From positions 1,798,001 to 1,862,000 of the forward strand of contig NZ_CP068393.1 in assembly GCF_018128945.1 (NCBI RefSeq): a stretch of DNA of 64,000 bases. Direction: 5' to 3'. A model generated the notes under the pieces. That model ran no database searches. It was not told the origin of the DNA and saw nothing but the letters and a program-made list of their open reading frames with translations. This DNA comes from Aristaeella hokkaidonensis (GTDB lineage Bacteria > Bacillota > Clostridia > Christensenellales > Aristaeellaceae). Both the position numbers and the translations under genes were made by a program. Numbering within the stretch: the stretch's first letter is position 1; every line of letters begins with the position of its first letter. Shown one piece after another: positions 15,783 through 58,053 of the stretch.

Positions 15783-15815
15783 AAGAAAAGGGCTCCTGAT
15801 CTCTCAGGAGCCCTT
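15783..15815 (-). terminator. Intrinsic terminator of the polysaccharide operon
   Basis: AAGGGCTCCTG-AGAGAT-CAGGAGCCCTT followed by TTCTT on the minus strand, after the last gene of the operon. Confidence 0.8.
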
Positions 15816-15837
15816 ACGTGCGGGAAACAGGACTTGA
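15783..15837. repeat. Left copy of direct repeat: tRNA-Leu 3' fragment plus terminator (putative att site)
   Basis: This 55-bp segment matches 29367-29420 with four substitutions and one extra base. The exact core (15815-15837, 23 bp) equals the last 19 bases of tRNA-Leu(CAG) and four bases beyond. The rest of the tRNA is absent here. The hairpin half (GGGCTCCTG...CAGGAGCCC) is a minus-strand terminator for the polysaccharide operon; the four substitutions are two compensatory base-pair changes relative to the right copy. Confidence 0.8.
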
Positions 15838-15852
15838 TAGATAACATGGGAG

Positions 15853-17340
15853 TTACATCGTTCCGATCCGTCTGAACACAACCCATATGGTTTTGAATAA
15901 GATATAAATATCCTTTTTGAGAGACCAGTTTTCGATGTATTCCCGGTCCATACGAACCACTGTGTTAAAATCGCGGATATTGCTGCGGCCGCTGACCTGC
16001 CAGAGTCCCGTAATTCCAGGCCGTGTGGACATCCTGGACCGGTGATAGGGCTCGTACCGCTGCCATTCGTCCACCGTAGGCGGACGGGTTCCAACCAGGG
16101 ACATTTCACCTTTCAGGACATTGAAAAACTGAGGAAACTCATCCAGGGACAGGGCGCGGATCCATCCGCCCACCCCCTTCTTCCATTTTCCGTCAGGGCC
16201 TTGTTTGCTTCCGATAATGCGCGGATCATTTTCCATCTTGAACATAAGGTGGCCTTCCTGGCCGTTTTCCTTTGCCACCTGCTTTTTCCGTGCTTCCGCA
16301 TCCATATACATGCTGCGGAACTTATACATCCTGAACTTCTTCCCGTTTTCACCGATCCGGATCTGGGAGAAAAAGATCGGTCCCGGATCAGAGAGCCAGA
16401 TTGCCAATCCTACAGTCGGAATAAGAAGCAGTGTAATCAGGGCACCGATCAGTCCGCCTGCGATATCCATGATTCGCTTCAGCAGCAGATCACGCCCTGT
16501 GACATAACCCAGAGAAGTCGTAATGGTCAGGTGACCGCAGATCCATTCCACGTTCTTATGCCGGGATTCGATGTCATCCAGGGACGTAAGGGCGGTATGA
16601 ATGGTAATACCTATGCGCATGAGGCTGTTGATAAGGTCCACAGGCATATCTGTTCCGGGCGGAACGTCCAGATACACTTCATCCACCCAGTTATTGGTCA
16701 GGTATTGCTCCAGCGTATCAGCTGTAGCCACAACCGGAATCGTGTCCACTTCCGGATACTCCTCCCGCACCTGGTTCAGCGCATGCCTCACCTGTTCTTC
16801 GGAAGAATTGGCTCCCATAATCGCCATACCGGAGAATCGGTAGATTCCGTAATTCGAACGGAGAATTCTCGGGATGACTGTCGGAATTTGGGAGGCTTCC
16901 AACGCAATCAGCATGGAATGCCGGTTATGGATATGGTGTTTTTTCTTCAGAAAACTCTTGTATACCTGACGCATGATATAACAGGACACCAGATACATCG
17001 GCAAGCCATATAGCGTGATCTTCAGCAGGTCTGCTTCAACAGACTGGTCCAGCAGCCGGATAATCAGCAGGACAAGTATCACATTTCCTGTCTGGCTGAG
17101 GAGCCGGATCATCTCATCCCACGGTGAATGATGCAGCACACTGTGATAGGTGTCCATGACAATCATCACAACCGTATTCACCAGGATGATTTCCAGGGCC
17201 ATCCACCAGAAAAAGCGGGAGTTTACACCTTCCTTTTCAACGATCAGGAATGCAGCCAGAAGGCTGACGAAAGCGCAGAGGATGTCCAGAAACATAAAGT
17301 CTATATGCTGGGACCAGCCGCGCACCCTTCGTTTGTACAT
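15853..17340 (-). CDS. Polyprenyl glycosylphosphotransferase (initiating sugar-1-phosphate transferase)
   Basis: Starts repeat-unit synthesis by moving a sugar 1-phosphate from UDP-sugar to undecaprenyl phosphate at the inner face of the membrane. The 495-residue protein has the long WbaP/CpsE-type layout: four or more N-terminal helices (about 10-125), a Rossmann-like middle region (about 145-260), one helix near 285-310, and a C-terminal catalytic domain with MYKFRSMYMDAE, SLDEFPQFFNVLKGEMSLVG, TRPP and RPGITGLWQVSGRSN. The sugar (often Glc, Gal or GalNAc) cannot be told. Last gene of the operon, 25 bases after the GT2 gene, and followed by the terminator and tRNA-Leu fragment at the island's left edge. 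Confidence 0.92.
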   Translation of the reverse strand: MYKRRVRGWSQHIDFMFLDILCAFVSLLAAFLIVEKEGVNSRFFWWMALEIILVNTVVMIVMDTYHSVLHHSPWDEMIRLLSQTGNVILVLLIIRLLDQSVEADLLKITLYGLPMYLVSCYIMRQVYKSFLKKKHHIHNRHSMLIALEASQIPTVIPRILRSNYGIYRFSGMAIMGANSSEEQVRHALNQVREEYPEVDTIPVVATADTLEQYLTNNWVDEVYLDVPPGTDMPVDLINSLMRIGITIHTALTSLDDIESRHKNVEWICGHLTITTSLGYVTGRDLLLKRIMDIAGGLIGALITLLLIPTVGLAIWLSDPGPIFFSQIRIGENGKKFRMYKFRSMYMDAEARKKQVAKENGQEGHLMFKMENDPRIIGSKQGPDGKWKKGVGGWIRALSLDEFPQFFNVLKGEMSLVGTRPPTVDEWQRYEPYHRSRMSTRPGITGLWQVSGRSNIRDFNTVVRMDREYIENWSLKKDIYILFKTIWVVFRRIGTM

Positions 17341-17365
17341 GCTTACACCTGCTTTCCATGATGAT

Positions 17366-18394
17366 TTATACGTCCAGTTTTTTCTCCTGCCTGACCCGGG
17401 CGGCGCACAGCAGCACAGCCGGCATCACCAGATGCATTTTCAGCAGCAGGATGACGGCTCCCGCCTTTCGCGGCAGGCCCTTGACTGACACAAAGGACAG
17501 CATCTCCGATTCACGGAGTCCCTGCTTCATATGCCGCGCTGCGTCCCGCAGGGAGGGCTCCGTCTGGACACGCCATTTTCCGGTACGGATAATCAGCATT
17601 GCCGCGTATTCGTTGAGCTGGCGGCCGATGGTTGGCGTCAGGCCGCTCATATGCTCCCTCATATAGGCGACCAGGTAACCGAAACTTTTTGTGAGGAGGT
17701 TCTCCCGGCTTCTGGCACGGATCGAGTCCTCATTGGTTTTATTGTACATATACAAAGGTTCGTTGCATATGTACACGTACTGGCAGTGCAGAAGGCATTC
17801 ATAGGTCATGGGCACGTCGGTAAAAACGCGGATCCTCTCGTCACGTGTATAATGCCCGACCAGCAGTTCACGCCTGAAAGCCTTATCCCAGGTATGTGCC
17901 TGAATCCTGCCCGGATGAAGCCCGGTCCGCGTATCCATAAGCAGATACGGGAAAATTTCCTTCTCCAGTCGTTCCCGGTTGTAGTATCCTTCCGGTACAT
18001 TGTTCAGCGTATCTTCCATATGATCCGCATATACATTGTGGGCAGCGAAAAGCACCATGTCGGGCAGTTCCGGTGAACCGGATACGGTATCGTGAATGAA
18101 TTGCAGCATGTTTTCGAGAGCCCAGTCATCCCCGTCCAGGATACAGACATAGTCCCCCCGGGCAGCAAGGATGCCCTTATTCCGGGCGGAAATCAACCCG
18201 CCGTTGGGCTTATGGATCACCCGCACGCGGGAATCACAGGCTGCGTAATCATCGCAAATCTGCGGGCACCCATCCGTTGAGCCATCATCCACCAGCAGCA
18301 ATTCAAAATCGGTATAGGTTTGATTCAGGATACTATCCACGCATTTTCTCAGGTATTTTTCCACATTATATACCGGCACAATAACACTGATCAT
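17366..18394 (-). CDS. Glycosyltransferase family 2
   Basis: A GT-A fold transferase that adds one sugar of the repeat unit on the cytoplasmic side. MISVIVPVYNVEKYLRKCVD starts the nucleotide-binding fold, DDGSTDGC and ILDGDDW (the metal-binding DxD) follow near residues 38 and 93. The 342-residue length is usual. A longer frame runs into the neighbouring gene, but the ATG at 18394 starts the domain exactly, overlaps the stop of the flippase gene as ATGA, and has GGGAGA upstream. The overlap points to translational coupling. Donor and acceptor sugars are unknown. Confidence 0.9.
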   Translation of the reverse strand: MISVIVPVYNVEKYLRKCVDSILNQTYTDFELLLVDDGSTDGCPQICDDYAACDSRVRVIHKPNGGLISARNKGILAARGDYVCILDGDDWALENMLQFIHDTVSGSPELPDMVLFAAHNVYADHMEDTLNNVPEGYYNRERLEKEIFPYLLMDTRTGLHPGRIQAHTWDKAFRRELLVGHYTRDERIRVFTDVPMTYECLLHCQYVYICNEPLYMYNKTNEDSIRARSRENLLTKSFGYLVAYMREHMSGLTPTIGRQLNEYAAMLIIRTGKWRVQTEPSLRDAARHMKQGLRESEMLSFVSVKGLPRKAGAVILLLKMHLVMPAVLLCAARVRQEKKLDV

Positions 18395-19971
18395 TCTTCG
18401 GTTCTCCCTTCCCCGACTGGGGTGTCCGCATCCTGTGTCTTCCGGTTTCCCGGCAGGATGTTCCTTTTCAGCTGTGAAAGGCTTTCCCGGAACACGTGGT
18501 TTCGTCCGTAAATGGCAAAGTAGATCAGATTCGGTACCAGGAAACTCACTGCGGCATTCAGGATCAGGGCCGGCCATGTATCCAGCGTAAACAGGCGGCA
18601 GGCAAACCATGATGCTGTGCAGGATGCCAGGGCAGCCGCCGTCAGTCCGCAGAAAAGCCGGATATACCGGCCCAGCTGTTCCCGGGGGAACACTTCCCTG
18701 AACAGGTTGTGGAACAGCCAGGGAATCTGGATAGCAACGATGGAGATAACCGAGGAAAGCAGCACCCCGTACAGCCCCAGCCACCGGACCGTGGCCAGGT
18801 TCAGGCCCAGATTGACCAGCGCCGCCGTCAGGGGCCTCCAGCGGTCCTGCCGCCATATGCCCGCTGCATCCTTGAACATATTGACCAGCTTATTGGCACC
18901 CATGGAGTAGTAATAAACGACGAAGCAAAGCACCAGCCCCATGGGGAGCATATTCTCTTCGCCCATCCAGAGATTCATAAACGGCTGGAATACACACAGC
19001 AGCATGGAGCTGCTCACCCCCAGCACCCAACTGAACAGGAGGCTGATCTTTTCCAGGTCCCGGTAATTCGCTTCCCGGCTCTCCATGACCATCTTGTTGC
19101 CCACTCCGGCCATACAGGCGTTGAGAAGCACCACCAGCATGATCCGCAGTGCGGTAATCACAAAATAGTAATTCTGATAAAGTGCCAGGACGGTCAGGCC
19201 CATAAAAGCGGAGATCACCAGGGTGTCCGCGGAATCAAAAACCGTGGCGGAAAGCTTGGAAGTAAAAAGATCCCGTACCCTGCGCAGAATATCCATTCGC
19301 TTTTCTTTCGGCAGGTTTCCTTCGGGCACGTATCGGGGATACATTCTGGACGCGTACACCGCCGTCAGCACGTTCACGGTAATCTGGCTCAGCAGCTGGA
19401 CGGACAGGTAGAGATAATAATCCCGTATAAAAACCAGGATCAGGATCTTCAGGGTATATTCCGTGATCCGCACCGCCAGGCTGACCTTGCTGATTACATC
19501 CCGCCGCTGGTGCGCCTGGAGCAGGCTGCTTTTGTAAGCGAACAGCCAGTACGTCACCACCGTGTTCCCCAGGTTCATCAGGTACAGGACGTACAGGTTC
19601 ATGCCGGCGGGGACATCCCCCTTGATGAGTCCCGGCAGAACAGGGATCAGGAGCAGCCCCAGCATGGCGATTACCAGTCCGATGATCCGGTAGAGGGTAC
19701 GATACAGGCGCAGCAGGGCGCAGATGGTCCGGGTATCATCTTCGGCAATGGGTTTGTACATGCTGAATACCATTGCGCTGCCCACGCCGAGCTCTGCCAG
19801 GTTCAGGAAGGTCAGGAGCGACTTGAACAGGCCGTTCAGGCCCAGGTATTCTGTTCCCAGGCAATGCAGCATGACAGAGCGAATGACAAACGGAAACAGC
19901 AGGTTGGCCATTTCCAGTGTCCCGTCAAACACAATGTTCCTTGTCGCGTTTCTGGTGCGTTCAAGCTTCAT
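18391..19971 (-). CDS. Wzx-type polysaccharide flippase (MOP superfamily)
   Basis: Moves the undecaprenyl-linked repeat unit across the membrane before polymerisation. The 526-residue protein has about twelve to fourteen hydrophobic helices and the N-terminal pattern of Firmicutes Wzx proteins (RNIVFDGTLEMANLLFPFVI, LGTEYLGLNGLFKSLLTFLN, LAELGVGSAMVFSMYKPIAE). The C-terminal 40 residues are charged and probably cytoplasmic. It overlaps the GT2 gene by four bases and lies 73 bases after the GT4 gene. Together with the Wzy-like and the two Wzz-like genes it shows a Wzx/Wzy-dependent pathway rather than an ABC exporter. Confidence 0.9.
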   Translation of the reverse strand: MKLERTRNATRNIVFDGTLEMANLLFPFVIRSVMLHCLGTEYLGLNGLFKSLLTFLNLAELGVGSAMVFSMYKPIAEDDTRTICALLRLYRTLYRIIGLVIAMLGLLLIPVLPGLIKGDVPAGMNLYVLYLMNLGNTVVTYWLFAYKSSLLQAHQRRDVISKVSLAVRITEYTLKILILVFIRDYYLYLSVQLLSQITVNVLTAVYASRMYPRYVPEGNLPKEKRMDILRRVRDLFTSKLSATVFDSADTLVISAFMGLTVLALYQNYYFVITALRIMLVVLLNACMAGVGNKMVMESREANYRDLEKISLLFSWVLGVSSSMLLCVFQPFMNLWMGEENMLPMGLVLCFVVYYYSMGANKLVNMFKDAAGIWRQDRWRPLTAALVNLGLNLATVRWLGLYGVLLSSVISIVAIQIPWLFHNLFREVFPREQLGRYIRLFCGLTAAALASCTASWFACRLFTLDTWPALILNAAVSFLVPNLIYFAIYGRNHVFRESLSQLKRNILPGNRKTQDADTPVGEGRTEE

Positions 19972-20044
19972 GCCGATTGCTGCAGTCCTTTCAGTTGGAT
20001 TTCAGGGATTTCCGGGCAGGATACCTCCAGCCGTATGCCCGATC

Positions 20045-21196
20045 TCAGCCGTCCAGGAGTCTCCTGTACAGCCTGTCCGTCTGCTCCGCAATCTCCTGCC
20101 AGGTATACTTGGACGAAATCACTTCCCGGGCTTCACTGCGATATGCTTCCGCCTGATCGGGATGGTCGCACAGGTTCTGCAGCGTCTCCCGCAGGGCTTC
20201 CGCGTTCCCGCGGGGAAAAGTGAGGCCGCAGCCGTTCATAACAGCTGTACACTCCCTGATATCGGATGTCACGCAGCAGCAGCCGTAATTCATAGCCTCC
20301 AGCAGGCTGAGCGGCATACCCTCGTGGTCGCTGGGCAGCACATACAGATGCGCATTGCTGTACAGCTCTTCCAGGACAGGCCCCTGCAGGAAACCGGTAA
20401 AGATGATGGACGGGGTATCTCCGGCCATTTCATGCAGCTGCTTCACATAGTCATCTGTATCCGATGATCCGCCGGCGATCACCAGCTTCTTATCCGTATG
20501 GAGCTTCCGGTATGCATCAATGAGGTAGTGAATTCCTTTTCCCGGATCAAGGCGGCCCACAAAAAGGATGTATCCCCGGGAAACCAGTCCGAACTGCTCG
20601 ATAATCTCACGAGCCGGCCGAATCTCTGCCGGTTCGACACCGTTGGGAATCAGCACCGTATCCCGTCCGTATTCCCTGAGGAAATACTCCTGCATGCTGG
20701 TGTTCAGCACGATAATGCTGTGGGCATGACGAACCGCCGCTTTTTCTCCTCGCAGAATATATGCGGAAGCGAACTTCCCCCATTTCTGACGCTTATGGTC
20801 AAGCCCGTGGACAGTCACCACGACCTTTTTGCCCATGAGTCTCGGCAGCCAGCAGAAAACACACGGTCCCTCCGCATGGAAGTGCACCAAATCAAACCGG
20901 CTGAATGCCGCCATGATCGTCGCAAGGACTGAGGAGGATACAGCCGCCAGCCCGCGGCGGTCCACCGTCGGCGTCCAGATCAGCCGGACTCCCCGGTATT
21001 CCCGTGCCAGGTTCCCTTGTCTCCGAAGCTTCCTGGCCTCTTTGCTTGTCCTGTTATAGCAGGTCACCTTATAGCCGGCCTCCGCGAGATGCGGCGCAAG
21101 GTTGCTTACAACAACCTCCACTCCTCCGTCCCTGGAGGGGATGAATTTGTGTCCGATTATTGCGATCCGTTTCGCTTCTTTCTGCACGCTGATCAT
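20045..21196 (-). CDS. Glycosyltransferase family 4 (first of two)
   Basis: A 383-residue GT-B fold transferase using a nucleotide sugar. The N-terminal half has RIAIIGHKFIPSRDGGVEVV, with the GGVE loop of GT4 enzymes, and the C-terminal donor half has FVGRLDPGKGIHYLIDAY (about 205-225) and the EX7E motif in LPSDHEGMPLSLLEAMNYG near residue 295. Acts on the cytoplasmic side in repeat-unit assembly; the sugar is unknown. It starts 35 bases after the second GT4 gene's stop. Confidence 0.9.
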   Translation of the reverse strand: MISVQKEAKRIAIIGHKFIPSRDGGVEVVVSNLAPHLAEAGYKVTCYNRTSKEARKLRRQGNLAREYRGVRLIWTPTVDRRGLAAVSSSVLATIMAAFSRFDLVHFHAEGPCVFCWLPRLMGKKVVVTVHGLDHKRQKWGKFASAYILRGEKAAVRHAHSIIVLNTSMQEYFLREYGRDTVLIPNGVEPAEIRPAREIIEQFGLVSRGYILFVGRLDPGKGIHYLIDAYRKLHTDKKLVIAGGSSDTDDYVKQLHEMAGDTPSIIFTGFLQGPVLEELYSNAHLYVLPSDHEGMPLSLLEAMNYGCCCVTSDIRECTAVMNGCGLTFPRGNAEALRETLQNLCDHPDQAEAYRSEAREVISSKYTWQEIAEQTDRLYRRLLDG

Positions 21197-21231
21197 TCCC
21201 TCCTTTCATAACAGACGGGCAAGCCGGTCCT

Positions 21232-22368
21232 TCAGGCTTCCGGCTGTGCGGTGGAATACGCGCGGGCTTCCATTTCCAGGTAGATCTCCTGAAGTTTCCG
21301 CGCTTCCGTATGTATGTCATACCCTGCCTGGCGGACAGTTTCCTTTCCCTGCAGCCGGTTCGTTTCTGTTTGTCTTATCGCTGCAATCTGCCTGGCCCAT
21401 TCCGCGTCGTCCGTGTCGAGGGAAATCCTTCGCGCTTCCGGAGAGAGCAGGATCTCGTCTGTAACCCGGTCAGAGAACACACACGGCAGTCCGGCTGCCT
21501 GCGCCTCGATGCCGACCACCGGAAGTCCTTCAAACAGCGAAGGAAGTACGAAACAGTCCATTGCCTGGTACCATTCGCTGACATCCGCCATCTGCCCGGG
21601 CATAATCGTCCTGTCCAGGATTCCGAGGCCGCGCGCCTTCTCCTTCATGGCCTGTTCCAGCTCGCCGGTGCCGATCAGGACGAGGCGGGCTTCAGGAATG
21701 TCCCTGGCGGCAGCGGCAAAAATATCCAGCAGCCGGCTATGGTTCTTCTGGACGTTGAATCTGCCCACATGGCCGATCACAAAGCATTTGTCCAGTCCTT
21801 GCTGCCGCCTCTTGCGTTCCCGGACTTCCGGCCGGAACCCGAACCGTTCCACGTCGATTGCGTTATGCAGAATGAAGCCGGATGTGTTCCAGCGTTTTTC
21901 CCCGTAATAATAGATCCCTGCGTCCCTGCCGCAGCTCCAGTAATCCGTTGCCGCGCCGGGAAGCAGCTGCTTGCAGACCATCTTCAGCGGATACTTGTAA
22001 TCACGGATAATCCGCGTATTGTGCGCATGCGCAATCCGGATCCGGATTCCGGCGTCTCTGGCGCTTTGGAGAGCATAATACCCCATCGCCTCATTATGCG
22101 CGTGAACGATACGGATATCGGGATTGTCGCGCAGAAGCTCCGCCATGTACCGCCTGTACCGGGGAAAATGCAGCGGATTCAGCCCGGGACTGACAAACAC
22201 CCTCCCGCCCAGGCGGCGGATCTCCTCGTCATATTCGCCCGGTACCGGTTTGTTGGCCAGGAAATCAAACTGGATCCGGCTCCGGTCTATCTCCCGGTAA
22301 TAGTTCATCAGCATGGTTTCGATTCCCGCACGTCCCATATTGCTGACGGAATGCAGCACACGAAGCAT
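21232..22368 (-). CDS. Glycosyltransferase family 4, EpsF-like (second of two)
   Basis: A 378-residue GT-B transferase close in pattern to EpsF-type exopolysaccharide transferases: MLRVLHSVSNMGRAGIETML at the start, VHAHNEAMGYYALQSARDAG (about 105), IGHVGRFNVQKNHSRLLDIF in the donor half (about 200) and PSLFEGLPVVGIEAQAAGLP with the EX7E motif (about 280). It belongs to the cytoplasmic repeat-unit assembly set; sugar specificity is unknown. Gap of about 50 bases to the CDP-glycerol transferase-like gene upstream. Confidence 0.9.
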   Translation of the reverse strand: MLRVLHSVSNMGRAGIETMLMNYYREIDRSRIQFDFLANKPVPGEYDEEIRRLGGRVFVSPGLNPLHFPRYRRYMAELLRDNPDIRIVHAHNEAMGYYALQSARDAGIRIRIAHAHNTRIIRDYKYPLKMVCKQLLPGAATDYWSCGRDAGIYYYGEKRWNTSGFILHNAIDVERFGFRPEVRERKRRQQGLDKCFVIGHVGRFNVQKNHSRLLDIFAAAARDIPEARLVLIGTGELEQAMKEKARGLGILDRTIMPGQMADVSEWYQAMDCFVLPSLFEGLPVVGIEAQAAGLPCVFSDRVTDEILLSPEARRISLDTDDAEWARQIAAIRQTETNRLQGKETVRQAGYDIHTEARKLQEIYLEMEARAYSTAQPEA

Positions 22369-22419
22369 CTTCTTGGGTTCCTCCCCTGCCGCTGTTTGGG
22401 GCGCGGCGCCCGTTTCCTG

Positions 22420-23604
22420 TCATTTTTCCCCGCTCATACGGCTGAGGATCCGGTACGTCCGCTCACAGTTGTTTTCATCCCGAACCGGGAAAAAGGCCTC
22501 CAGGCGGTTCCGGTATTCTTCCTGCACCCGGAAATCATTCCCGGCACATTCATATAAGGCGTCCATCACTTCTTCCTCTGTCCTGGCAACAGGACCGAAT
22601 CCGTGCTTCTCTGCAGAAAAATAGCCTTCCTGGTAATGATATTTCCGGAAATCTTCCAGATCGAACTGATAATATATCACCGGCTTTTCCATATATCCCA
22701 CGTCAAAGAACACACTGGAATAATCCGTAATCAGCAGGCTGCAGCGCATCAGCAGCGTCTGGACATCATAATCCTTCCAGCTTGCCAGGACAATCCGGTC
22801 CGATGGAGCTTTGAACTTATCCAATTCTTCCTGAAGCTCAATGTGAGGATAGAATATCAGCCTGAGATCCCGCTCCTCCAGGAGGCGGAGCAGGCGGGCA
22901 TTCTCCAGCAGGGACTGGAAATGCCGGTAAAAGGCCGTTCCGTAAAACTGTTCTCCCCGTGGATAGTCCGAACCCCGCCAGGTGGGCATAACAAGGATTT
23001 CATTGGAAGGCTTGTTTCCCCGGAGGAGATTGTCATATCTGCATAATCCCGTGTATTGAATCACGCCTTCCGGGAAACCGTATTCAGATACGAGGTAATC
23101 GTATTCCATCCTGCTGCCGCTGGCAAAAAAGTCAAGCTTCAGCCCGGGATATCTCATCAGTCTCATGTTGTTCTGAATAATCCCGTGCTGCAGGAAAATC
23201 TGTTTCCCCCTTGGCCGGATCCCCATCTGACGAAGATGATAAAAAGCCATCAGGTCGGGCGAGGCAGGCTGGACATGGGTACCAATCAGCATATCTGCAG
23301 CCAGATACATCAGATAGTGTTTCAGCGATCTCCATGCAGCGACCTTGCCAAGCTGCGCAACCTTTCCGTAATCCGGGCTGGCCGGATCAATGACAAAGCA
23401 CACGTTGATCTGCGGCTGCTGTTCCCGCAGATAGCGGAAAAACCAGTATGCGTTATCCCTGGCGTCATACCCGCGTTCCATTACCAGCCAGAGATGGCGG
23501 TATGCATTGCTCGTTTTTCTCAGTACCGCGGCGATGGGCCGGAGCAGCGTCAGCAAAAACACATCCTTCAGATAAGCCGGCAGCCGCTTTAGTATGTGCA
23601 GCAT
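22420..23604 (-). CDS. CDP-glycerol glycerophosphotransferase family protein (TagF/TarF-like)
   Basis: Members transfer glycerol phosphate or ribitol phosphate from a CDP-polyol to a lipid-linked glycan. The 394-residue protein carries the family's NAYWFFRYL near residue 52, IFLQHGIIQNN near 150, PTWRGSDY near 210, and TDYSSVFFDVGYMEKPVIYY near 315, which holds the nucleotide-binding and catalytic features. Residues 1-25 are basic and amphipathic, as in TagF-type membrane-surface enzymes. No gene for CDP-glycerol synthesis is present in the window, so the donor must come from elsewhere. Its place in the operon suggests that the polysaccharide carries a polyol phosphate. Six bases separate it from the Wzy-like gene. 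Confidence 0.88.
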   Translation of the reverse strand: MLHILKRLPAYLKDVFLLTLLRPIAAVLRKTSNAYRHLWLVMERGYDARDNAYWFFRYLREQQPQINVCFVIDPASPDYGKVAQLGKVAAWRSLKHYLMYLAADMLIGTHVQPASPDLMAFYHLRQMGIRPRGKQIFLQHGIIQNNMRLMRYPGLKLDFFASGSRMEYDYLVSEYGFPEGVIQYTGLCRYDNLLRGNKPSNEILVMPTWRGSDYPRGEQFYGTAFYRHFQSLLENARLLRLLEERDLRLIFYPHIELQEELDKFKAPSDRIVLASWKDYDVQTLLMRCSLLITDYSSVFFDVGYMEKPVIYYQFDLEDFRKYHYQEGYFSAEKHGFGPVARTEEEVMDALYECAGNDFRVQEEYRNRLEAFFPVRDENNCERTYRILSRMSGEK

Positions 23605-23610
23605 TTTCCA

Positions 23611-24972
23611 TCATTCTCCCATCTCAATCAGCCGGATCTCATTCATCGCTTCATCCGGTGTCGGCGCTTTCCACCGAACCTGCTTCAGCTTTTCGCGGAT
23701 CCGGTAGCTGTAACTCATGGGAATCAGTTTCAGGCCGATACAGCTCCAGAAATAGAAAGCTGTATTGTCCGTCAGGTACGTTACGGTCATATAGGCCAAT
23801 ATGGCTATATACAGCAATCCGGTTTCCGTATCATGCTGTTTCATCCAGTAAGAGGGATACAGGATATAATTGATCCCCGCCCACAGGGTGAATCCCAGCG
23901 CGCCGAGTTCAATAAAGATCTTCAGGATATCATTGTGCAGCGGAAATGGATGATTGATCAGTCCGTTGCTGTACCAGATATTCACCAGGTCGGTCACGCC
24001 TTCGAAGCCCAATCCCTTCCACAGCGGGGAAAGCTCATAGTAGTCATTTGGCAGCTTCCACAGGACATCGCGGCCCATCATGTCAACCCCCAGCGACTCC
24101 AGAAACGCCACCAGGATACCGTTCCGCGTCAGGTAGAGATACAGGTAGAAAAACAGAAACAGGCTGATCCCCGTCGCCATGATAAACTTTCCCGGTTTCC
24201 GGGCCTTCCGGACCAGCTTTACGAATACACATACAAAAAGCACCGCCGGCAGGACGCTGCGTTTCAATCCCACCAGCATGAAAAATACGGAGAGGATCAC
24301 CCCCAGGCGCCGGATGCGTTTCTCCGGTTTTGAGCCTTTCGGTGCAAACATCATGTAGTAAATGAAGAACTGTCCGAACAGGAAAGTGATATCATGGATT
24401 TCCAGCGCCCGCACAAACCCTTCAGCCTCACCGAACGTGATCAGGCAGGTCACAACGGAAGAAATGCTCTCCACGAAACCGTACTTCGGCATTTCCAGCA
24501 GAATGATGGCCGCGTTTGTGGCGCACATGCTGAAAAACATGTAATTGATCGCCCTGTCTTCAAACAGGTAGCACATGAATACACAGTAAATAATAACAAT
24601 TGTCTGGAACAGGATCTTCTGCCCTGCCCGGCTGATGGATGCTGTCTGGGAAAGATCCGTGATCCATATATACAGGCTGACCAGGGTATAAACGGCAATC
24701 ATGAGCAGGAAGATGGGAAAATACCCTATTGCCTTCCTGATCTTTGCGAAATCTGCGGTCACAAGGAAACACAGGAATGCACATACGATCGTCCCGAGCA
24801 CGATGACTTTCGGCAACGCTCCGTATGCATCATTGAGTGTCTTCCAGTCTCCGAGGCCGGCGAAAACGGTGCAGGCAACAGCGAGAAATGCGATAAATAC
24901 CGGGCATTCCTTTCTTGTTGTTTGCTGCATCCGGCTGTATTCACCATTCAGCAGGGAGTTATTGCGCATCAT
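23611..24972 (-). CDS. O-antigen ligase/polymerase-like membrane protein (Wzy candidate)
   Basis: Probably the polymerase that joins repeat units on the outer face of the membrane. The 453-residue protein has about eleven hydrophobic helices and one large outer loop (about 285-340) with GRDVLWKL and FPLHNDILKIFIELGALGF, the pattern of the Wzy_C/O-antigen ligase family (H-x-D near the end of the loop). Wzy proteins are poorly conserved, so the assignment rests on topology, this loop and the operon. It overlaps the end of the Wzz-GGDEF gene by 14 bases, so polymerase and chain-length regulator are translationally coupled. Confidence 0.82.
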   Translation of the reverse strand: MMRNNSLLNGEYSRMQQTTRKECPVFIAFLAVACTVFAGLGDWKTLNDAYGALPKVIVLGTIVCAFLCFLVTADFAKIRKAIGYFPIFLLMIAVYTLVSLYIWITDLSQTASISRAGQKILFQTIVIIYCVFMCYLFEDRAINYMFFSMCATNAAIILLEMPKYGFVESISSVVTCLITFGEAEGFVRALEIHDITFLFGQFFIYYMMFAPKGSKPEKRIRRLGVILSVFFMLVGLKRSVLPAVLFVCVFVKLVRKARKPGKFIMATGISLFLFFYLYLYLTRNGILVAFLESLGVDMMGRDVLWKLPNDYYELSPLWKGLGFEGVTDLVNIWYSNGLINHPFPLHNDILKIFIELGALGFTLWAGINYILYPSYWMKQHDTETGLLYIAILAYMTVTYLTDNTAFYFWSCIGLKLIPMSYSYRIREKLKQVRWKAPTPDEAMNEIRLIEMGE

Positions 24973-26851
24973 TTTTTTTCCCCGTGCTTACCGGCTTTGT
25001 GCGATTCCGGGTTTTCTCCGGTGCATTTTTACCGGAAACATCCTCTGATTCGGCCTCATTCTGTTCAGAATGCATTCTCTGCAGGGCAAGCCTGAGCAGA
25101 TCTCTGATTTCAAAAATGTGGTCCTCGCTTGAAACAGCTTTGCCGGAGATATAGTGAACAGTATGTCCCTGATTCAGGTTATTGTATTTCTCAACCTGGC
25201 GTCCGATTGCTTTCAGAATCACATCCAGCTTGTCCGGCGGGCATTTCGGGAAGAAGGCGTAGAAGACGCCGCTGCCGTTATGCCCCACAAATCCGTACAG
25301 GTCGCCGTAGCTCTTCAGAATCGCCGCAAAGTCCTTCAGCACTTCATCACCGGCTTCCCGTCCGTATTCATTGGACAGGCTGCTCAGGGAATCCATCTTC
25401 AATGCTACGCAGGCAAAATTCTCATCCAGCAGTTTGTTCGCCCATTCACTGATATACACGTCGCATCTGGCCCGGTTCGGAATTTGAACGGTTTTATCCA
25501 CATACCGGAAATAGTCGATAAAGTCCAGTGCTCTTCCCAGCAGTACAGCTCCGATGCCGCCCACCAGCACAAACAATATGATGGCAAGCACAAGGTACAG
25601 CTTGATGTTCACAGTCGGCTGAACATTGATGCTGCTGATCATCGCCAGATAATTTGCGCTCAGCTGGCGGTTCAGTTCGCGTCCCGTGTTTTCCACGTAC
25701 TGATAGTATTTGTTTGCCAGTTCTGCACAGCGATTGATCTTTTCACGGATTTCTTCGGAACTGAAAGTCTTCCGCCCCTGTGCATGGTCCTCGGCCTCAA
25801 ACACAGACAGCAGGTATTCCTTGTGTTCCTTCTCGATTGTTTTCTGCCGGACATCGATGTTCAGGTCCACATATTCCTGGATCAGGCCGTCATATGTTGT
25901 TTCCTTGTTACTATGCTCATGATTGTATTCAACATCCTTCAGGATGGATTCCGTTCCGTTCTCCGCACTTTGATAATGATAATCCATCATTTCCTTGTTG
26001 CGGATGCTGTAATTGTCAATCAGTTTTTTCAGGGATTTTGACCGTTCCTGCCGGTTTTCGATATACAGCTGCAGATCCTCGCAGTCTTTTGTCAGCCGGC
26101 TCACCAGCAGGTCGCTGTCATTCGTCTCCGCATTGGACAGTATTGCCGCATAGAGGCCGGGAATTTCGTAATTGTACAGCAGGCGGTAGATACGGTACAG
26201 GTCGTTGTATGTATATCCCGTGTCCACCGACCGGAAATACGGATAGTCTTCCCGTTTGCTCAGCAGGTAATCCAGCATTTCCGAAATGGAATCCTCCATC
26301 ACCTGCGTACTTTCCACATAGTCATAGTTCCCTTCCGCCAGCACGGAAACGCCGTTGCCCTGCAGCGGTTCCTCCACATACTTTCCTGCATAGAACTCGT
26401 AATAATTCTTGATGATGGCGTCCAGCATGTTCCAGGCATAATCCTCACCGGTATCATTGTTGCCGATAAAATATACCCGGTACGTATCCGTAACATAGGA
26501 GGGATCCTCACCCTTTTCCACCAGGGCTTCATTCAGCTTCTGCTGTGTTTCCGGAACCACTTCCTCCACATAGCAGTTGGAGCGGACAGAATCAATATTG
26601 GAATGAAATCCCAGGTCTGCCATGGCAGCGTCAATCACCGTCGAAGAATAGATTTCTTCCACATTCAGGGGACTTCCGTCCGGTGTATACCCCTCTTTGG
26701 CAGCGGAGTTGGTATACTGGATCACCGTGGAAGCCACATACCGCTGCTGGGATTTGGCGTAGAAATAGATAAACAGGGAGCCGATCACGGACAGAAGAAA
26801 GATCAGCAGGCTGAATTTCTTCAGATAGCGCAGAATGCTGAATTGTCTCAT
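24959..26851 (-). CDS. Wzz-like chain-length/co-polymerase protein fused to a degenerate GGDEF domain
   Basis: From the ATG at 26851 the protein has 630 residues. Residues about 12-32 and 415-440 are membrane helices flanking a long, partly coiled extracellular region, the layout of polysaccharide co-polymerases; SPLNVEEIYSSTVIDAAMADLG near residue 60 suits the Wzz fold. From about 452 to 590 a cytoplasmic GGDEF-like domain follows: DKTVQIPNRA matches D-x-L-T-x-L-x-N-R, NEYGREAGDEVL matches the helix before the active site, and VGHNGSGVFYAFFP aligns with the GGDEF strand, so GGDEF has become GSGVF. No RxxD inhibitory site is seen, so it should not make cyclic di-GMP. The start overlaps the previous stop as ATGA and has AAGGAG upstream. 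Confidence 0.85.
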   Translation of the reverse strand: MRQFSILRYLKKFSLLIFLLSVIGSLFIYFYAKSQQRYVASTVIQYTNSAAKEGYTPDGSPLNVEEIYSSTVIDAAMADLGFHSNIDSVRSNCYVEEVVPETQQKLNEALVEKGEDPSYVTDTYRVYFIGNNDTGEDYAWNMLDAIIKNYYEFYAGKYVEEPLQGNGVSVLAEGNYDYVESTQVMEDSISEMLDYLLSKREDYPYFRSVDTGYTYNDLYRIYRLLYNYEIPGLYAAILSNAETNDSDLLVSRLTKDCEDLQLYIENRQERSKSLKKLIDNYSIRNKEMMDYHYQSAENGTESILKDVEYNHEHSNKETTYDGLIQEYVDLNIDVRQKTIEKEHKEYLLSVFEAEDHAQGRKTFSSEEIREKINRCAELANKYYQYVENTGRELNRQLSANYLAMISSINVQPTVNIKLYLVLAIILFVLVGGIGAVLLGRALDFIDYFRYVDKTVQIPNRARCDVYISEWANKLLDENFACVALKMDSLSSLSNEYGREAGDEVLKDFAAILKSYGDLYGFVGHNGSGVFYAFFPKCPPDKLDVILKAIGRQVEKYNNLNQGHTVHYISGKAVSSEDHIFEIRDLLRLALQRMHSEQNEAESEDVSGKNAPEKTRNRTKPVSTGKKNDAQ

Positions 26852-28194
26852 ACTTCTTTCTCCTTGTCTGAAAGAATCTTCCACAGCAGCACGCAGGCCA
26901 GTAACGCGATCAGGGCCAGCACGGAATAAAGGAGAGAATGAACGAGGTCAATCTGATCCTTAAAGCCCCTGCTGTCATCGCTGAAACTGATATAGTTGCG
27001 GGCTCTTGCGCTCGTATATGCGCTGTCCGCCGTCTGGATATCAGCGGCAAGTTTATCCAGTGTTTCGTCCATCTCGTGGATCATAGCGTCAGCCTTCGCT
27101 TTTTTCTTCCGGTCAGACAGCCTTGTCTTCAGCTTTTCAGTCAGATAAGTGCTGTATTCAATCTGCTCCAGCCGTTCTGTCGCGCCTGCAAGCTGCGCGT
27201 CGGCGTGAAGGGCCATATTGTCCATCCCGGTTTTGGTCCTGGACATATAATACTGCATCGTCTGATCCTGGGTAGGAATCATGACAACAGCGCTCATTGC
27301 CGCATCGTACATCCGGATTCCATTGTTGTCCTCATCGTACGCGGCCATCAGTTTGCTGTACATCAGCCGATCCATACGTATTTTGTAATCCAGCATGCTG
27401 ATAAGGCCAGCCCGGTCATTCGCTATGCCGTTTTCAATCACATAGGATCGGAGTTTTGCGAGGTCATAGTCATAGAAGTTATTCACCCGCTGTTCCAGCG
27501 CTGAAAAAGTAATTCCGGTATCCGGTTCCTGATAGTTTTTGCTTTCCCGCCTGCGAAGCTGTACATATTTCTCCAGCTGGCTGCACTTCAGGTCCAGCAG
27601 ATCAACCGCGGTCAGATACTCGTCATTGAATTTCAGGTCATCAATCTCAAAAGACAGGATGGAGTGATTGTATCCGTAGTGCTCCACGAAGTACTCGCGA
27701 TACGCTTTGCAAAGAAGTGAAAGCATATCTTCCGCGGTTCTTCCGGCCATAGCCCCGTTGACTGTAAACTCCACAACAAACGAGGTGCTGATATAGTTCA
27801 CGCTGCCGCTGATGCTTTTATCATGCGTTGCCTGGACGTTGATGCATTCGCTCAGTTCTTTCGGAGTGATCTTTCCTTCCAGGCCGGCATATTCAATCAG
27901 CCGTTCCATCACTTCGCCGCCCTGGATCTCGAAGATGTTGAACCGCGTCCTGTTGGGCGTCAGGCCTTTGGAAGCTTCCTCATAATCCAGCGACAGCACA
28001 GTGCTGGCCGTGTGCTTGTTTACAAAATAGTGATAACCGCACAATGCCAGGAAAACAAGCATAAAAACAATGAGAAAGAAACGCCACCTCTTCCGGAATA
28101 CTTTCAAAGCATTTCGCATGCCGTTCCATACTTTGCCGGAAATTCCGGGCGTTCCTGCGGATTCGCCAGTCCGGATTTTGTTCTTCTCTTTCAT
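26848..28194 (-). CDS. Wzz-like polysaccharide co-polymerase (second, without GGDEF)
   Basis: A 448-residue membrane protein with one helix at about 38-58, a large outer region (about 60-415) with predicted coiled coil around 325-400, and a second helix at about 420-440 ending in a short charged tail. The stretch LDYEEASKGLTPNRTRFNIF after the first helix resembles the start of the paired protein (TNSAAKEGYTPDGSPLNVEE), so the two are paralogues. No tyrosine kinase domain or gene accompanies it. It probably controls chain length or export together with the Wzz-GGDEF protein, whose start codon overlaps its stop. Confidence 0.8.
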   Translation of the reverse strand: MKEKNKIRTGESAGTPGISGKVWNGMRNALKVFRKRWRFFLIVFMLVFLALCGYHYFVNKHTASTVLSLDYEEASKGLTPNRTRFNIFEIQGGEVMERLIEYAGLEGKITPKELSECINVQATHDKSISGSVNYISTSFVVEFTVNGAMAGRTAEDMLSLLCKAYREYFVEHYGYNHSILSFEIDDLKFNDEYLTAVDLLDLKCSQLEKYVQLRRRESKNYQEPDTGITFSALEQRVNNFYDYDLAKLRSYVIENGIANDRAGLISMLDYKIRMDRLMYSKLMAAYDEDNNGIRMYDAAMSAVVMIPTQDQTMQYYMSRTKTGMDNMALHADAQLAGATERLEQIEYSTYLTEKLKTRLSDRKKKAKADAMIHEMDETLDKLAADIQTADSAYTSARARNYISFSDDSRGFKDQIDLVHSLLYSVLALIALLACVLLWKILSDKEKEV

Positions 28195-28262
28195 TCCTTC
28201 TCCTTCTTATCTTTCAGGTCATCCTGCAGACGTGCTGTGCGGCGGTTGTACACCGGGAATTC

Positions 28263-29171
28263 CTAATACCGGTCAATATCGATCACAACCAGTTCCGGCA
28301 TGTTATTGATCCGCGGCGGGAACGGTTTGGAATCGCCGAGTCCCGCGCTAACGATCAGTTTCTGTTGGTTCTGCAGCGTGTATTCCCCCGCAGTAAAGCG
28401 CGGGAAGAATCCTTCTTCGTCCGAATACAGGCCTCCGGCAAAAGGCAGGTTCACAATCCCGCCGTGCACGTGTCCCGCGATTCCCAGGTCGAAATCATAT
28501 CCGGCCAGCTGCGGTTCAAAGAGGATCGGAACATGGGTCATCAGAATGCTGTACGCAGATGGATTGATCACGGTTTTATCCATGAATTCCCGTCCGCCGT
28601 ATGCTTCAAATCCGTGAGCGCTGCCTTCCACTCCGATCAGCTGGATCACGTCATTTCCGATCCGGACCTCTTCAGTCGCGTTGCGCAGCAGCTTCAGCCC
28701 CGCGTCTCTGAACTTCCCGGGCAGTTCCTGGTCGTCCCGGTAATAAATGCGTTCGCTCTCATGATTTCCGAGAACCCCGTAACACGGCGCGATCCCGGAT
28801 AATGAGGACACAAGATTCAGCATGGGCCGGTAGTCATCCTGTTCCCGGATCACCATATCGCCCGGGATAAGAATCAGATCTGGTTTCAGGGCTCGGATGT
28901 CAGAAATCAGCGTTTCGTTGTTTTCCCCGTATTCCCGGTTATGAATATCGGAGACAACCGCGATCCGGATGTTGTCACTGACTTTTCCGGATGTCTCCTG
29001 ATAGAATCTGATCAGGTAATGGGTCTGCGTATACTGGCTGTAAAAATACACAGCTGCAGTAATGATCGCCAGGATCAATACCAAAACGATCAGTACACGA
29101 AAGAACTTCCGCAAAAAACGGTTTTTCCGCCTTGCCGTTTTCTTTTTTACAAGTACGGTATCAGTACTCAT
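28263..29171 (-). CDS. Membrane-anchored metallophosphoesterase (YkuE/YaeI-like)
   Basis: A calcineurin-like phosphoesterase with an N-terminal basic stretch and one membrane helix (about 24-46), so the catalytic domain faces outward. All metal-binding blocks are present: VVSDIHNREY, LIPGDMV, VLGNHESER, LMTHVPIL and IAGHVHGG. Relatives act on membrane phospholipids or phosphate esters (YaeI on UDP-diacylglucosamine-like or lipid substrates, YkuE on cell-wall-linked esters); the substrate here is unknown. It is the first gene of the polysaccharide operon, about 40 bases from the predicted transcription start, which suggests a role in carrier-lipid or polymer phosphate turnover. Confidence 0.87.
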   Translation of the reverse strand: MSTDTVLVKKKTARRKNRFLRKFFRVLIVLVLILAIITAAVYFYSQYTQTHYLIRFYQETSGKVSDNIRIAVVSDIHNREYGENNETLISDIRALKPDLILIPGDMVIREQDDYRPMLNLVSSLSGIAPCYGVLGNHESERIYYRDDQELPGKFRDAGLKLLRNATEEVRIGNDVIQLIGVEGSAHGFEAYGGREFMDKTVINPSAYSILMTHVPILFEPQLAGYDFDLGIAGHVHGGIVNLPFAGGLYSDEEGFFPRFTAGEYTLQNQQKLIVSAGLGDSKPFPPRINNMPELVVIDIDRY

Positions 29172-29184
29172 GTAAACGTTTACT
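29171..29184. promoter_or_regulatory. LacI/CcpA-like palindrome before the polysaccharide operon
   Basis: TGTAAACGTTTACT contains the perfect palindrome GTAAACGTTTAC with a central CG, close to the catabolite-responsive element consensus. It touches the ATG of the first gene, downstream of the predicted promoter, where a bound repressor would block elongation. Confidence 0.45.
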
Positions 29185-29218
29185 CCTGAGTTTAGATTTT
29201 TGCATAGTTGTTTTTCCT

Positions 29219-29247
29219 ATTATATCAGCTGAATATATGAAAAACAA
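29219..29247 (-). promoter_or_regulatory. Predicted sigma-A promoter of the polysaccharide operon
   Basis: Minus-strand TTGTTT, 17-base spacer, perfect TATAAT. Transcription would start near 29212, giving a leader of about 40 bases, too short for a riboswitch. Confidence 0.72.
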
Positions 29248-29363
29248 GGTGATTTACGTTACACTTTTGCATTCTGCAATCATGAAATAATATGATTGGA
29301 TCATAAAGTACATACATCATACCGGAGCAATGGCAAAGAAACCGCAGCCGGATGATCGGAAGT

Positions 29364-29398
29364 AAAAAGAAAAGAGCTCTTGATCTCTCAAGAGCTCT
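29364..29398 (-). terminator. Intrinsic terminator of the tRNA operon
   Basis: AGAGCTCTTG-AGAGAT-CAAGAGCTCT followed by TTTCTTTTT on the minus strand, just after tRNA-Leu. Confidence 0.88.
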
Positions 29399-29420
29399 AC
29401 GTGCGGGAAACAGGACTTGA
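29367..29420. repeat. Right copy of direct repeat: intact tRNA-Leu 3' end plus terminator
   Basis: Partner of 15783-15837. It includes the end of the intact tRNA-Leu gene (29402-29420) and the hairpin downstream. The two copies lie in the same orientation 13.6 kb apart, with the whole polysaccharide operon between them. Confidence 0.8.
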
Positions 29421-29485
29421 ACCTGCAAGTACGTACGTACACATGAACCTGAATCATGCGCGTCTGCCAATTCCGCCATTCCCGC
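29402..29485 (-). tRNA. tRNA-Leu(CAG)
   Basis: 84 nt with a long variable arm. Acceptor GCGGGAA pairs with TTCCCGC, the anticodon loop is TTCAGGT (CAG), the T loop TTCAAGT. CCA is not encoded. Last tRNA of the seven-gene cluster; its 3' end is duplicated at 15815. Confidence 0.96.
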
Positions 29486-29493
29486 AAGTATGG

Positions 29494-29575
<82 letters not shown>

Positions 29576-29605
29576 ATATGATGTCCCTCTTGACCCAAAG
29601 GGTGG

Positions 29606-29678
29606 AGCTGGCGATGGGACTCGAACCCGCAACCTGCTGATTACAAATCAGCTGCTCTGCCAATTGAGCTACGCCAGC
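29606..29678 (-). tRNA. tRNA-Thr(TGT)
   Basis: 73 nt. Acceptor GCTGGCG/CGCCAGC, anticodon stem GCTGA/TCAGC with loop TTTGTAA (TGT), T loop TTCGAGT, discriminator T. Confidence 0.96.
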
Positions 29679-29714
29679 ACGAAGCTCGTTCTGCGAGTCC
29701 TACCGTAAAAGTGG

Positions 29715-29788
29715 CGACCCGGAAGGGGCTCGAACCCTCGACCTCCAGCGTGACAGGCTGGCGCTCTAACCAACTGAGCTACCGGGCC
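29715..29788 (-). tRNA. tRNA-Asp(GTC)
   Basis: 74 nt. Acceptor GGCCCGG/CCGGGTC, anticodon stem CCAGC/GCTGG with loop CTGTCAC (GTC), T loop TTCGAGC, discriminator G as usual for Asp. Confidence 0.96.
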
Positions 29789-29797
29789 AAATGGCTG

Positions 29798-29871
29798 TGG
29801 GCCTTCAGGGACTTGAACCCCGGACCAACCGGTTATGAGCCGGCCGCTCTGACCAACTGAGCTAAAGGCCC
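29798..29871 (-). tRNA. tRNA with CAT anticodon, probably Ile2 (lysidine type)
   Basis: 74 nt. Acceptor GGGCCTT/AAGGCCC, anticodon stem GCCGG/CCGGT with loop CTCATAA. A CAT anticodon can be initiator Met, elongator Met or Ile2 (read as AUA after TilS modifies C34). The CCTTTAGCTCAGTTGG start and GGCTCATAACCG core look like Bacillus Ile2; elongator Met is the alternative. The Watson-Crick first pair argues against initiator Met. Confidence 0.85.
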
Positions 29872-29892
29872 ATATCGGAAAGGAAGAAAAAG

Positions 29893-29965
29893 TGACTCCG
29901 CCGGGATTCGAACCCGGGTAGCCGCCGTGAAAGGGCGGTGTCTTAGGCCTCTTGACCACGGAGCC
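29893..29965 (-). tRNA. tRNA-Glu(TTC)
   Basis: 73 nt. Acceptor GGCTCCG/CGGAGTC, anticodon stem CCGCC/GGCGG with loop CTTTCAC (TTC), T loop TTCGAAT. Confidence 0.96.
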
Positions 29966-29984
29966 ACGTACGAGGTGATTTGAG

Positions 29985-30059
29985 TCGGGGTGAAGGGATT
30001 CGAACCCCCGGCCCCATGCTCCCAAAGCACGTGCGCTAGCCAGACTGCGCTACACCCCG
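29985..30059 (-). tRNA. tRNA-Pro(TGG)
   Basis: 75 nt. Acceptor CGGGGTG/CACCCCG, with the C1 typical of bacterial Pro, anticodon stem CGTGC/GCATG with loop TTTGGGA (TGG), T loop TTCGAAT. First tRNA of the cluster. Confidence 0.96.
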
Positions 30060-48518: not shown

Positions 48519-48587
48519 ATTCGTTCATTCTCCTATACTCATACTTCTGTCTTTGTTCTCATTTCCGTGCGGCTGAACTATATATCA

Positions 48588-57684: not shown

Positions 57685-58053
57685 TCAGAATTCAAGTCCG
57701 GCTTCCCGTGCGCCGTCAGCCACAGCGGCGACGCGCCCGGTGTACATGTACCCTCCGCGGTCAAAGACCACGGTCTTGATGCCGGCTTCGACGGCGCGCT
57801 CCGCGATGAGCTTGCCCACGAGTTTGGCGGCACCCTTCTTGTCCACTTCGTCCAGCTGGCCCTTCAGGGCGGGATCCATGGTGCTGGCGCTCACCAGGGT
57901 AATGCCCTTGGTGTCGTCAATGATCTGAGCCTGAATGTGCTTGTTGGAGCGATATACGGAAAGACGCGGGGCTTCGGGGGTGCCGCTGATCTTTTTCCGT
58001 ACCCGTGCGTGACGGATCACGCGAATTTCATTACGGTCACGTTTCTTAAACAT
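57685..58053 (-). CDS. rplR: 50S ribosomal protein L18 (uL18)
   Basis: 122 residues. [20 protein letters not shown] and [20 protein letters not shown] are the family signatures. Binds 5S rRNA in the central protuberance together with L5. Confidence 0.97.

Follow-up and report, generated by a model that had tools for sequence, protein, structure and literature searches.

Genomic islands inserted by tyrosine integrases at tRNA genes have an intact tRNA at one end, a direct repeat of the tRNA 3′ end at the other and foreign cargo between the two, and loss of the integrase is common in decayed islands. Temperate phages can have their attachment site (attP) in a tRNA 3′ end. Here, we analyze a window of 64,000 nucleotides from Aristaeella hokkaidonensis (positions 1,798,001–1,862,000 of a single-contig genome of 3.39 Mb, labeled G000), in which a ten-gene polysaccharide operon lies between two directly repeated copies of the 3′ end of tRNA-Leu(CAG). 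We propose, with a probability of about 0.78, that this interval is a genomic island that lacks an integrase and occupies an integration hotspot at tRNA-Leu(CAG). The locus shares with tRNA-site islands an intact tRNA, a 3′-end repeat, foreign cargo and an occupancy that differs between species, but it lacks an integrase, its repeat continues through an intrinsic terminator and it shows no GC anomaly. The comparison with temperate phages is similarly divided: one viral contig (L165, see below) combines the tRNA-end 19-mer, a terminator and an integrase, whereas no phage gene was recognized among the ten genes of the interval.

The passages available from one study (PMC10872708) describe an additive flexible genomic island at tRNA-Lys in Ca. 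Methylopumilus that is variable in size and content and has repeats of the last 20 nt of the tRNA. Our search set comprised forty relatives and the window's own genome (41 genomes, 25 of them in the genus), and one relative, G008, resembles the additive-island array of those passages in having several copies of the tRNA fragment and two integrases in a row (PMC10872708); its cassettes involve four fragments on three contigs, whereas the window has a single cassette. The present locus differs from the Ca. Methylopumilus island in the bacteria, in the tRNA and in its cargo, a surface-polysaccharide operon, and the introduction of that study associates glycocalyx genes with replacement islands and not with additive ones (PMC10872708). 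Tycheposons, as they appear in the same passages, are alike in being cargo-bearing DNA that adjoins a tRNA and unlike in that a tyrosine recombinase is one of their marks (PMC10872708); none adjoins the tRNA in the window. A literature search covering listings, the beginnings of abstracts and these passages found no paper on this tRNA-Leu site, and the window island looks like a fresh example of a well-known tRNA-site type.

The repeat pair and its terminators

The boundaries of the interval are made up of the following features.

29401..29485, minus strand: intact tRNA-Leu(CAG) (ARAGORN), the 3′ end of which is the putative attachment site; integrases adjoin the corresponding tRNA in G008, G018, G019 and G021
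29367..29420, minus strand: right repeat, the 3′ 19 nt of tRNA-Leu and an intrinsic terminator; attachment (att) copy at the intact tRNA
15783..15837, minus strand: left repeat, a displaced 3′ 19 nt of tRNA-Leu and an intrinsic terminator; distal att copy
29401..30059, minus strand: cluster of seven tRNAs (ARAGORN) on the tRNA-side flank, with tRNA-Leu(CAG) as the last of the seven

The longest exact word common to both copies spans 23 bp (15815–15837 and 29398–29420) and is composed of the final 19 nt of tRNA-Leu(CAG) plus four more, and near-exact similarity extends across the terminator for ~55 bp at 90–91% identity. Exact-word and genome searches thus reproduce the coordinates, core and extent that had been given in an initial annotation of this DNA. 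Searched against the whole 3.39-Mb contig, the left and right copies recover one another with E = 3.7e-13 and no third comparable copy was found, the five other matches being weak (E 0.015 to 7.5) and covering part of the unit. Direct repeats of 20-mers occurred in none of 30 Markov-1 simulated windows, while the real window has two further, unrelated families; the genome search and the simulations together rule out a chance repeat. A match to the 19-mer with four mismatches at window position 57692 is without a terminator and was dropped.

The tRNA and the operon run in the same direction, and each copy, read on the coding strand, consists of the tRNA end, a hairpin and a T-run. The hairpins of the two copies contain 12 and 11 pairs (−23.0 and −21.3 kcal/mol), and their stems differ at two compensated pairs, as the initial annotation had reported; it had also taken these differences to mean that selection appears to keep both terminators. 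For comparison, the two terminators of the window were aligned with nine others from six genomes, all eleven chosen as alignable members of one family of tRNA-end terminators. They have a common 11-bp stem in which all 121 cells pair. Five of the 11 pairs show changes to both partners in one or more sequences, and covariation scores higher than in any of 500 shuffles; the number of pair types is not exceptional, as 367 of the 500 shuffles reach the observed value. Other terminators at tRNA-Leu(CAG) in relatives diverge more than these eleven. Judged from this alignment, the tRNA-end stem is kept, in line with that remark. However, because the integration model has one terminator borne by the element and the other by the chromosome, the compensated differences need not postdate a duplication here, and the two window copies are probably of different origins. 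The left copy lies on the operon strand, 15 bp past the last stop codon, and its position and fold make it most likely that its terminator ends the operon transcript.

Integrases and cargo at the tRNA-Leu(CAG) site in relatives

The 19-mer was sought in 36 fetched loci, 20 of which, together with the window, were re-read with the sequence that precedes the core. Eleven fragments without a tRNA body were found, in G000, G001, G002, G008 (four places), G009, G010, G017 and G023. At least 8 of the 25 genomes of the genus thus contain fragments, a lower bound since weak matches elsewhere were not all fetched. Identity to the tRNA starts at TTCAAG in nine fragments and at TCAAG in two (G000 and G023). 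A candidate fragment on contig C18 of G004 was dropped, as the contig ends at the core and G004 cannot be judged; contigs of G004, G009 and G022 break off at the tRNA end or a few bases from it, as expected from an assembly fork at a repeat. A search for PF00589 integrases in 15 genomes located a full integrase directly 3′ of, and facing, tRNA-Leu in four (G008, G018, G019 and G021) and partial integrases in two (G017, at the tRNA, and G009, at the fragment).

The interval is occupied differently from genome to genome. The operon is at the site in G000 and in G023, where it has the same place and 97–100% identity per kb, and other cargo is found in G001, G002 and G008, to which homology of the window halts at 15837–15842 and restarts at 29367–29370. 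These observations are strong evidence that the interval is a repeat-bounded island with variable occupancy, and they argue as strongly that the tRNA-Leu(CAG) site is an integrase hotspot with several cargoes, the fragment not being specific to the operon. The geometry of tRNA-site integration that the initial annotation had read from the window is supported by the integrases at this tRNA in relatives, and the different gene sets between the same repeats that it had suggested looking for are those of G001 and G002. What it had named as contrary findings was not seen: the operon is not universal, as close homologues of its last gene (≥75%) occur in 6 of the 41 genomes, and the window genome has no further comparable copy of the fragment.

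The history of one insertion can be followed by comparing G008 with G021. The order in G008 is tRNA, integrase, ArdC-like frame (by eye), SIR2/STALD protein and others, with a fragment 9.6 kb on and then a second integrase; this fragment carries a terminator different from that at the tRNA. From the start of the core, the second G008 fragment and its downstream sequence match the intact tRNA end and downstream sequence of G021 at 100% over 115 bp, beyond which the match continues at 90–92% in further, longer blocks (G018 is similar). The match therefore indicates that the first G008 element entered between the tRNA and the second element, taking the tRNA end and leaving the older end and its terminator 9.6 kb off. 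At the level of sequence comparison, this pair of after (G008) and before (G021) states shows the same arrangement as the window, although G021 represents the before-state for the G008 element only and not for the operon cargo. In the G008 locus (L047, 6100–19000), two integrase genes thus follow one another at tRNA-Leu; the element of the first has a defence-like SIR2/STALD protein, and a DUF5906 protein comes after the second.

In G001, the RpoB of which is 99.8% identical to that of the window genome, 3.8 kb lie between the repeats and encode an HNH_3/NUMOD4 protein (Pfam), a second such protein by resemblance and others. Where this cargo meets the fragment, its final 145 bp match the final 145 bp of the G008 integrase element at 84% identity, and the insert is most likely an element minus its integrase, which would provide an integrase-less precedent. 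In G002, the tRNA is separated by 2.4 kb with a CotH-like gene from a decayed copy, which adjoins the same GH3 gene that flanks the interval in the window. In G001, other genes replace GH3 itself, and turnover therefore extends beyond the repeat-bounded interval. Identity of the window to its two closest genomes, G001 and G023, varies from 87 to 100% from kb to kb, which suggests frequent homologous exchange.

The attachment sequence also occurs on viral contigs. The 20-mer TCAAGTCCTGTTTCCCGCAC is present in 15 stretches of IMG/VR contigs; ARAGORN assigns three of these to tRNA genes, and tRNA-like sequence precedes several more. L165 contains the 19-mer without a tRNA body, followed by its own hairpin and T-run and, ~115 bp on, by a facing integrase that is 44% identical to that of G018. 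This is how the attP of such elements should look, and the contig may be a free phage or part of an integrated array. L169 has the 19-mer and a terminator, but its integrase (42%) is ~7 kb distant; L173 has the same att sequence as L169, with no integrase match in the piece examined.

The operon and its transfer between lineages

Ten minus-strand genes occupy the interval between the copies (15853–29171), and from their family matches the set is predicted to be an exopolysaccharide synthesis operon. The genes, in order of transcription, and the neighboring features are listed below.

29219..29247, minus strand: candidate operon promoter, TTGTTT-17-TATAAT (loose pattern)
28263..29171, minus strand: metallophosphoesterase (PF00149), first gene
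26848..28194, minus strand: membrane-anchored protein, Wzz-like by eye, no family match
24959..26884, minus strand: Wzz-like protein (by eye) fused to a degenerate GGDEF domain (PF00990 and motif)
23611..24972, minus strand: Wzy-type polymerase/O-antigen ligase family (PF04932, 31.9 bits against a cut-off of 31.7)
22420..23604, minus strand: TagF-like glycerophosphotransferase (PF04464)
21232..22368, minus strand: group 1 glycosyltransferase (Pfam)
20045..21196, minus strand: group 1 glycosyltransferase (Pfam)
18391..19971, minus strand: possible Wzx-type flippase, 526 aa (weak NF041503 match, E = 0.0067, below cut-off; no Pfam match, no PDB match)
17366..18400, minus strand: family 2 glycosyltransferase (PF00535); the shorter start was chosen, as the longer start in the list of open reading frames (18856) overlaps the upstream gene
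15853..17340, minus strand: exopolysaccharide polyprenyl glycosylphosphotransferase (PF02397; TIGR03025 above cut-off), initiating enzyme, last gene
13105..15711, plus strand: GH3 glycosidase, distal-side flank, in the same place in G023 and G002

The ten genes and the Wzy-type protein of the ten-gene Wzx/Wzy operon described by the initial annotation are retained, with the corrections that the flippase candidate is 18391–19971, by one weak match, and that 26848–28194 is without a family match. Among 17 upstream regions, the promoter boxes are identical in locus L093 and read TTGTCT-17-TATAAT in L094, and only these three share the pattern; a stricter promoter scan did not return the candidate. 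In the protein encoded at 24959–26884, the GGDEF signature is changed to NGSGV-type residues and is degenerate in all 33 covering homologue rows, some of which are one contig twice. The fusion may possibly be a receptor for cyclic di-GMP built into chain-length control.

No integrase gene is located in the interval, in agreement with the initial annotation: the genome has three PF00589 matches (E ≤ 1e-5), at 1.02, 2.96 and 3.10 Mb, and each is separated from the interval by at least 0.8 Mb. This absence lowers the claim of a functional island. No phage structural, packaging or replication genes were recognized among the ten by Pfam (all ten) or NCBIfam (8 of 10), with two proteins lacking a Pfam match and PHROGs not searched. 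Elsewhere in the genome (L140, 3.093–3.099 Mb), an integrase 39–42% identical to those at tRNA-Leu(CAG) is positioned ~1.5 kb from tRNA-Leu(CAA), possibly a second island site.

The distribution of the operon was compared with that of its hosts by setting the mean identity of operon proteins against that of RpoB, both relative to the window genome, in ten distant operon-bearing genomes, the RpoB of which is 61.4–70.4% identical to that of the window genome. In seven (L098, L100, L102, L103, L104, L105 and L119, on contigs of 41–308 kb), RpoB identity is 61–69% and mean operon identity 72–77%. By way of comparison within the genus, the values are 91% for RpoB and 73% for the operon in G009, and 92% and 82% in G015. 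G033, from another family, has an RpoB identity of 69% and eight operon proteins at 65–80% on two short contigs (L076 and L101, the latter presumed to be its contig C30); it was rejected as sole proof of transfer, as these pieces of 5.5 and 6.6 kb could be misbinned, and the ten genomes, most with longer operon contigs, were therefore tested. As far as protein identities can tell, the evidence is strong that the operon was transferred between lineages and acquired horizontally.

Relatives of the GGDEF protein were found in 30 further named-record loci, by title mostly metagenome-assembled genomes of ruminant-gut Clostridia. In five loci from outside these records, similarity to the operon reaches the last stop codon or breaks off at most ~30 bp short of it, and the sequences past the stop codon in relatives appear unrelated by eye. 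The G015 operon is ~3 kb from a gene whose match in the window genome is ~275 kb from the operon. At the start of L093, the final 9 nt of the tRNA and a similar hairpin precede the same operon, the first gene of which starts at base 264. L093 was rejected as one of the known relatives, since none of the 41 genomes contained an identical match to it. This contig (LUZC01000088.1) is a Clostridial-type polysaccharide contig within a record named Bacteroidales; the genome record has a tRNA-Thr-Tyr-Gly-Thr cluster followed by a frame that reads as EF-Tu by eye, which we take to be a Bacteroidales-type order, and the operon contig is therefore probably misbinned. The operon of L103, near another tRNA-Leu(CAG), was rejected as a further case at the site, as the two genes between (a dehydrogenase and an ArgZ-like protein) include no integrase.

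The window also contains an AT-rich dispersed repeat of 31–32 bp (ATTCTGA/ATTCTTA heptads) at 48587, 50038 and 50481, with 36 places in the genome. All 15 copies at 1.16–2.62 Mb are on the plus strand and 18 of the 21 elsewhere are on the minus strand, as if the repeat were oriented with replication.

Origin of the insert and its meaning

In the mechanism that we propose, elements of the genus would bear a tyrosine integrase and an attP that is a 19-nt copy of the tRNA-Leu 3′ end followed by a terminator of their own. Recombination at the chromosomal tRNA end would give the tRNA the 3′ end and terminator of the element, while the previous 3′ end and its terminator come to lie at the distal side of the insert; comparison shows this step in the relatives, and it is inferred for the window. 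The window insert would now contain only the horizontally acquired exopolysaccharide operon, its transcript ended by the displaced terminator. The integrase has presumably been lost, and homologous recombination through the flanks is therefore probably the one way in which the island can still move. The operon may have arrived as part of an integrase element, or it may have taken the place of earlier cargo between att copies that were already there.

Several results weigh against such an island. The gaps that flank the operon gave no significant blastx match to four integrases (best E 0.45), which would have marked a remnant, and the operon shows no compositional break (GC 0.49–0.58, against 0.48–0.62 around it). 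No strictly empty site with a single att copy was found in the genus, and no genome has GH3 joined to the tRNA cluster through one copy, the arrangement that the initial annotation had proposed as a check. (G013 was rejected as an empty site: only the first 60 bp past its tRNA match a fragment side, that of G004.) The base before the core is A in the window and T in the other nine fragments. The 19-mer, allowing up to three mismatches, was found in none of the 30 named operon loci, many with short flanks. A search of viral contigs with one operon protein found no relative of the operon. Finally, in three of the ten distant genomes operon identity does not exceed that of RpoB (L108, about equal at 70; L111, 60 against 67; L118, 64 against 69).

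An alternative that we rate at somewhat less than an even chance departs from the proposed island only in the mode of entry of the operon. Here, the att copies would predate the operon. The duplication would stem from an integrase element, the cargo of which was later exchanged for the operon through homologous or illegitimate recombination, as in a replacement island. Both copies flank other cargo in G001 and G002, and the copies on the corresponding flank in G002 and G008 are decayed (three and two changes in 19), making an old duplication plausible; segments may be exchanged, given the varying identity (87–100% per kb) to the two closest relatives, and the 15 bp that separate the end of the operon from the core contain no recognizable element sequence. 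However, the left copy of the window is perfect over 23 bp, against three changes in the 19-mer of G002, which fits a younger, separate integration, and L093 may represent another placement at a tRNA.

It is highly improbable that the island has stayed mobile through an integrase encoded elsewhere that excises and inserts it in trans. It does have two att-like copies with an intact core, and the related integrase at 3.096 Mb (39–42% identical) could be a candidate, but that gene is ~1.5 kb from tRNA-Leu(CAA), and 5 of the 19 positions at the 3′ end of this tRNA do not match the CAG core. Moreover, the operon is in the same place in G023, at 97–100% identity per kb, and neither genome has a second close copy of the last gene. 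We find it scarcely credible that the left copy arose by duplication of a terminator that the operon then captured, without any integrase. It is well sited to end the operon, but its 19 nt of tRNA are not needed for termination; moreover, in relatives this fragment lies at the border of an integrase element and of other cargo, and on a viral contig it adjoins an integrase. A duplication of the terminator only was rejected, given the 19 nt of tRNA and the G008/G021 pair, which disfavors it.

A broader reading, which we regard as unlikely, goes beyond the integrase-less island: the tRNA 3′ end together with its terminator would serve the genus as a portable boundary module. Elements would carry this unit as their attP, each round of integration swapping and displacing the terminator of the tRNA; displaced copies would terminate resident cargo, and recombinase-less polysaccharide operons might be installed or exchanged through integrases acting in trans or homologous recombination.

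For the integrase-less island itself, transfer of the terminator with the tRNA end would mean that the tRNA stays terminated while the cargo obtains a ready terminator. The tRNA-Leu hotspot, in little-studied Clostridia with relatives mostly from the ruminant gut, hosts in turn integrase elements, HNH-type cargo, a CotH-like gene and a whole surface-polysaccharide operon. Surface polysaccharides influence phage binding and adhesion, and a slot that derives from phage-like integrases and contains genes for such a polymer is therefore a plausible route to change of the cell surface.

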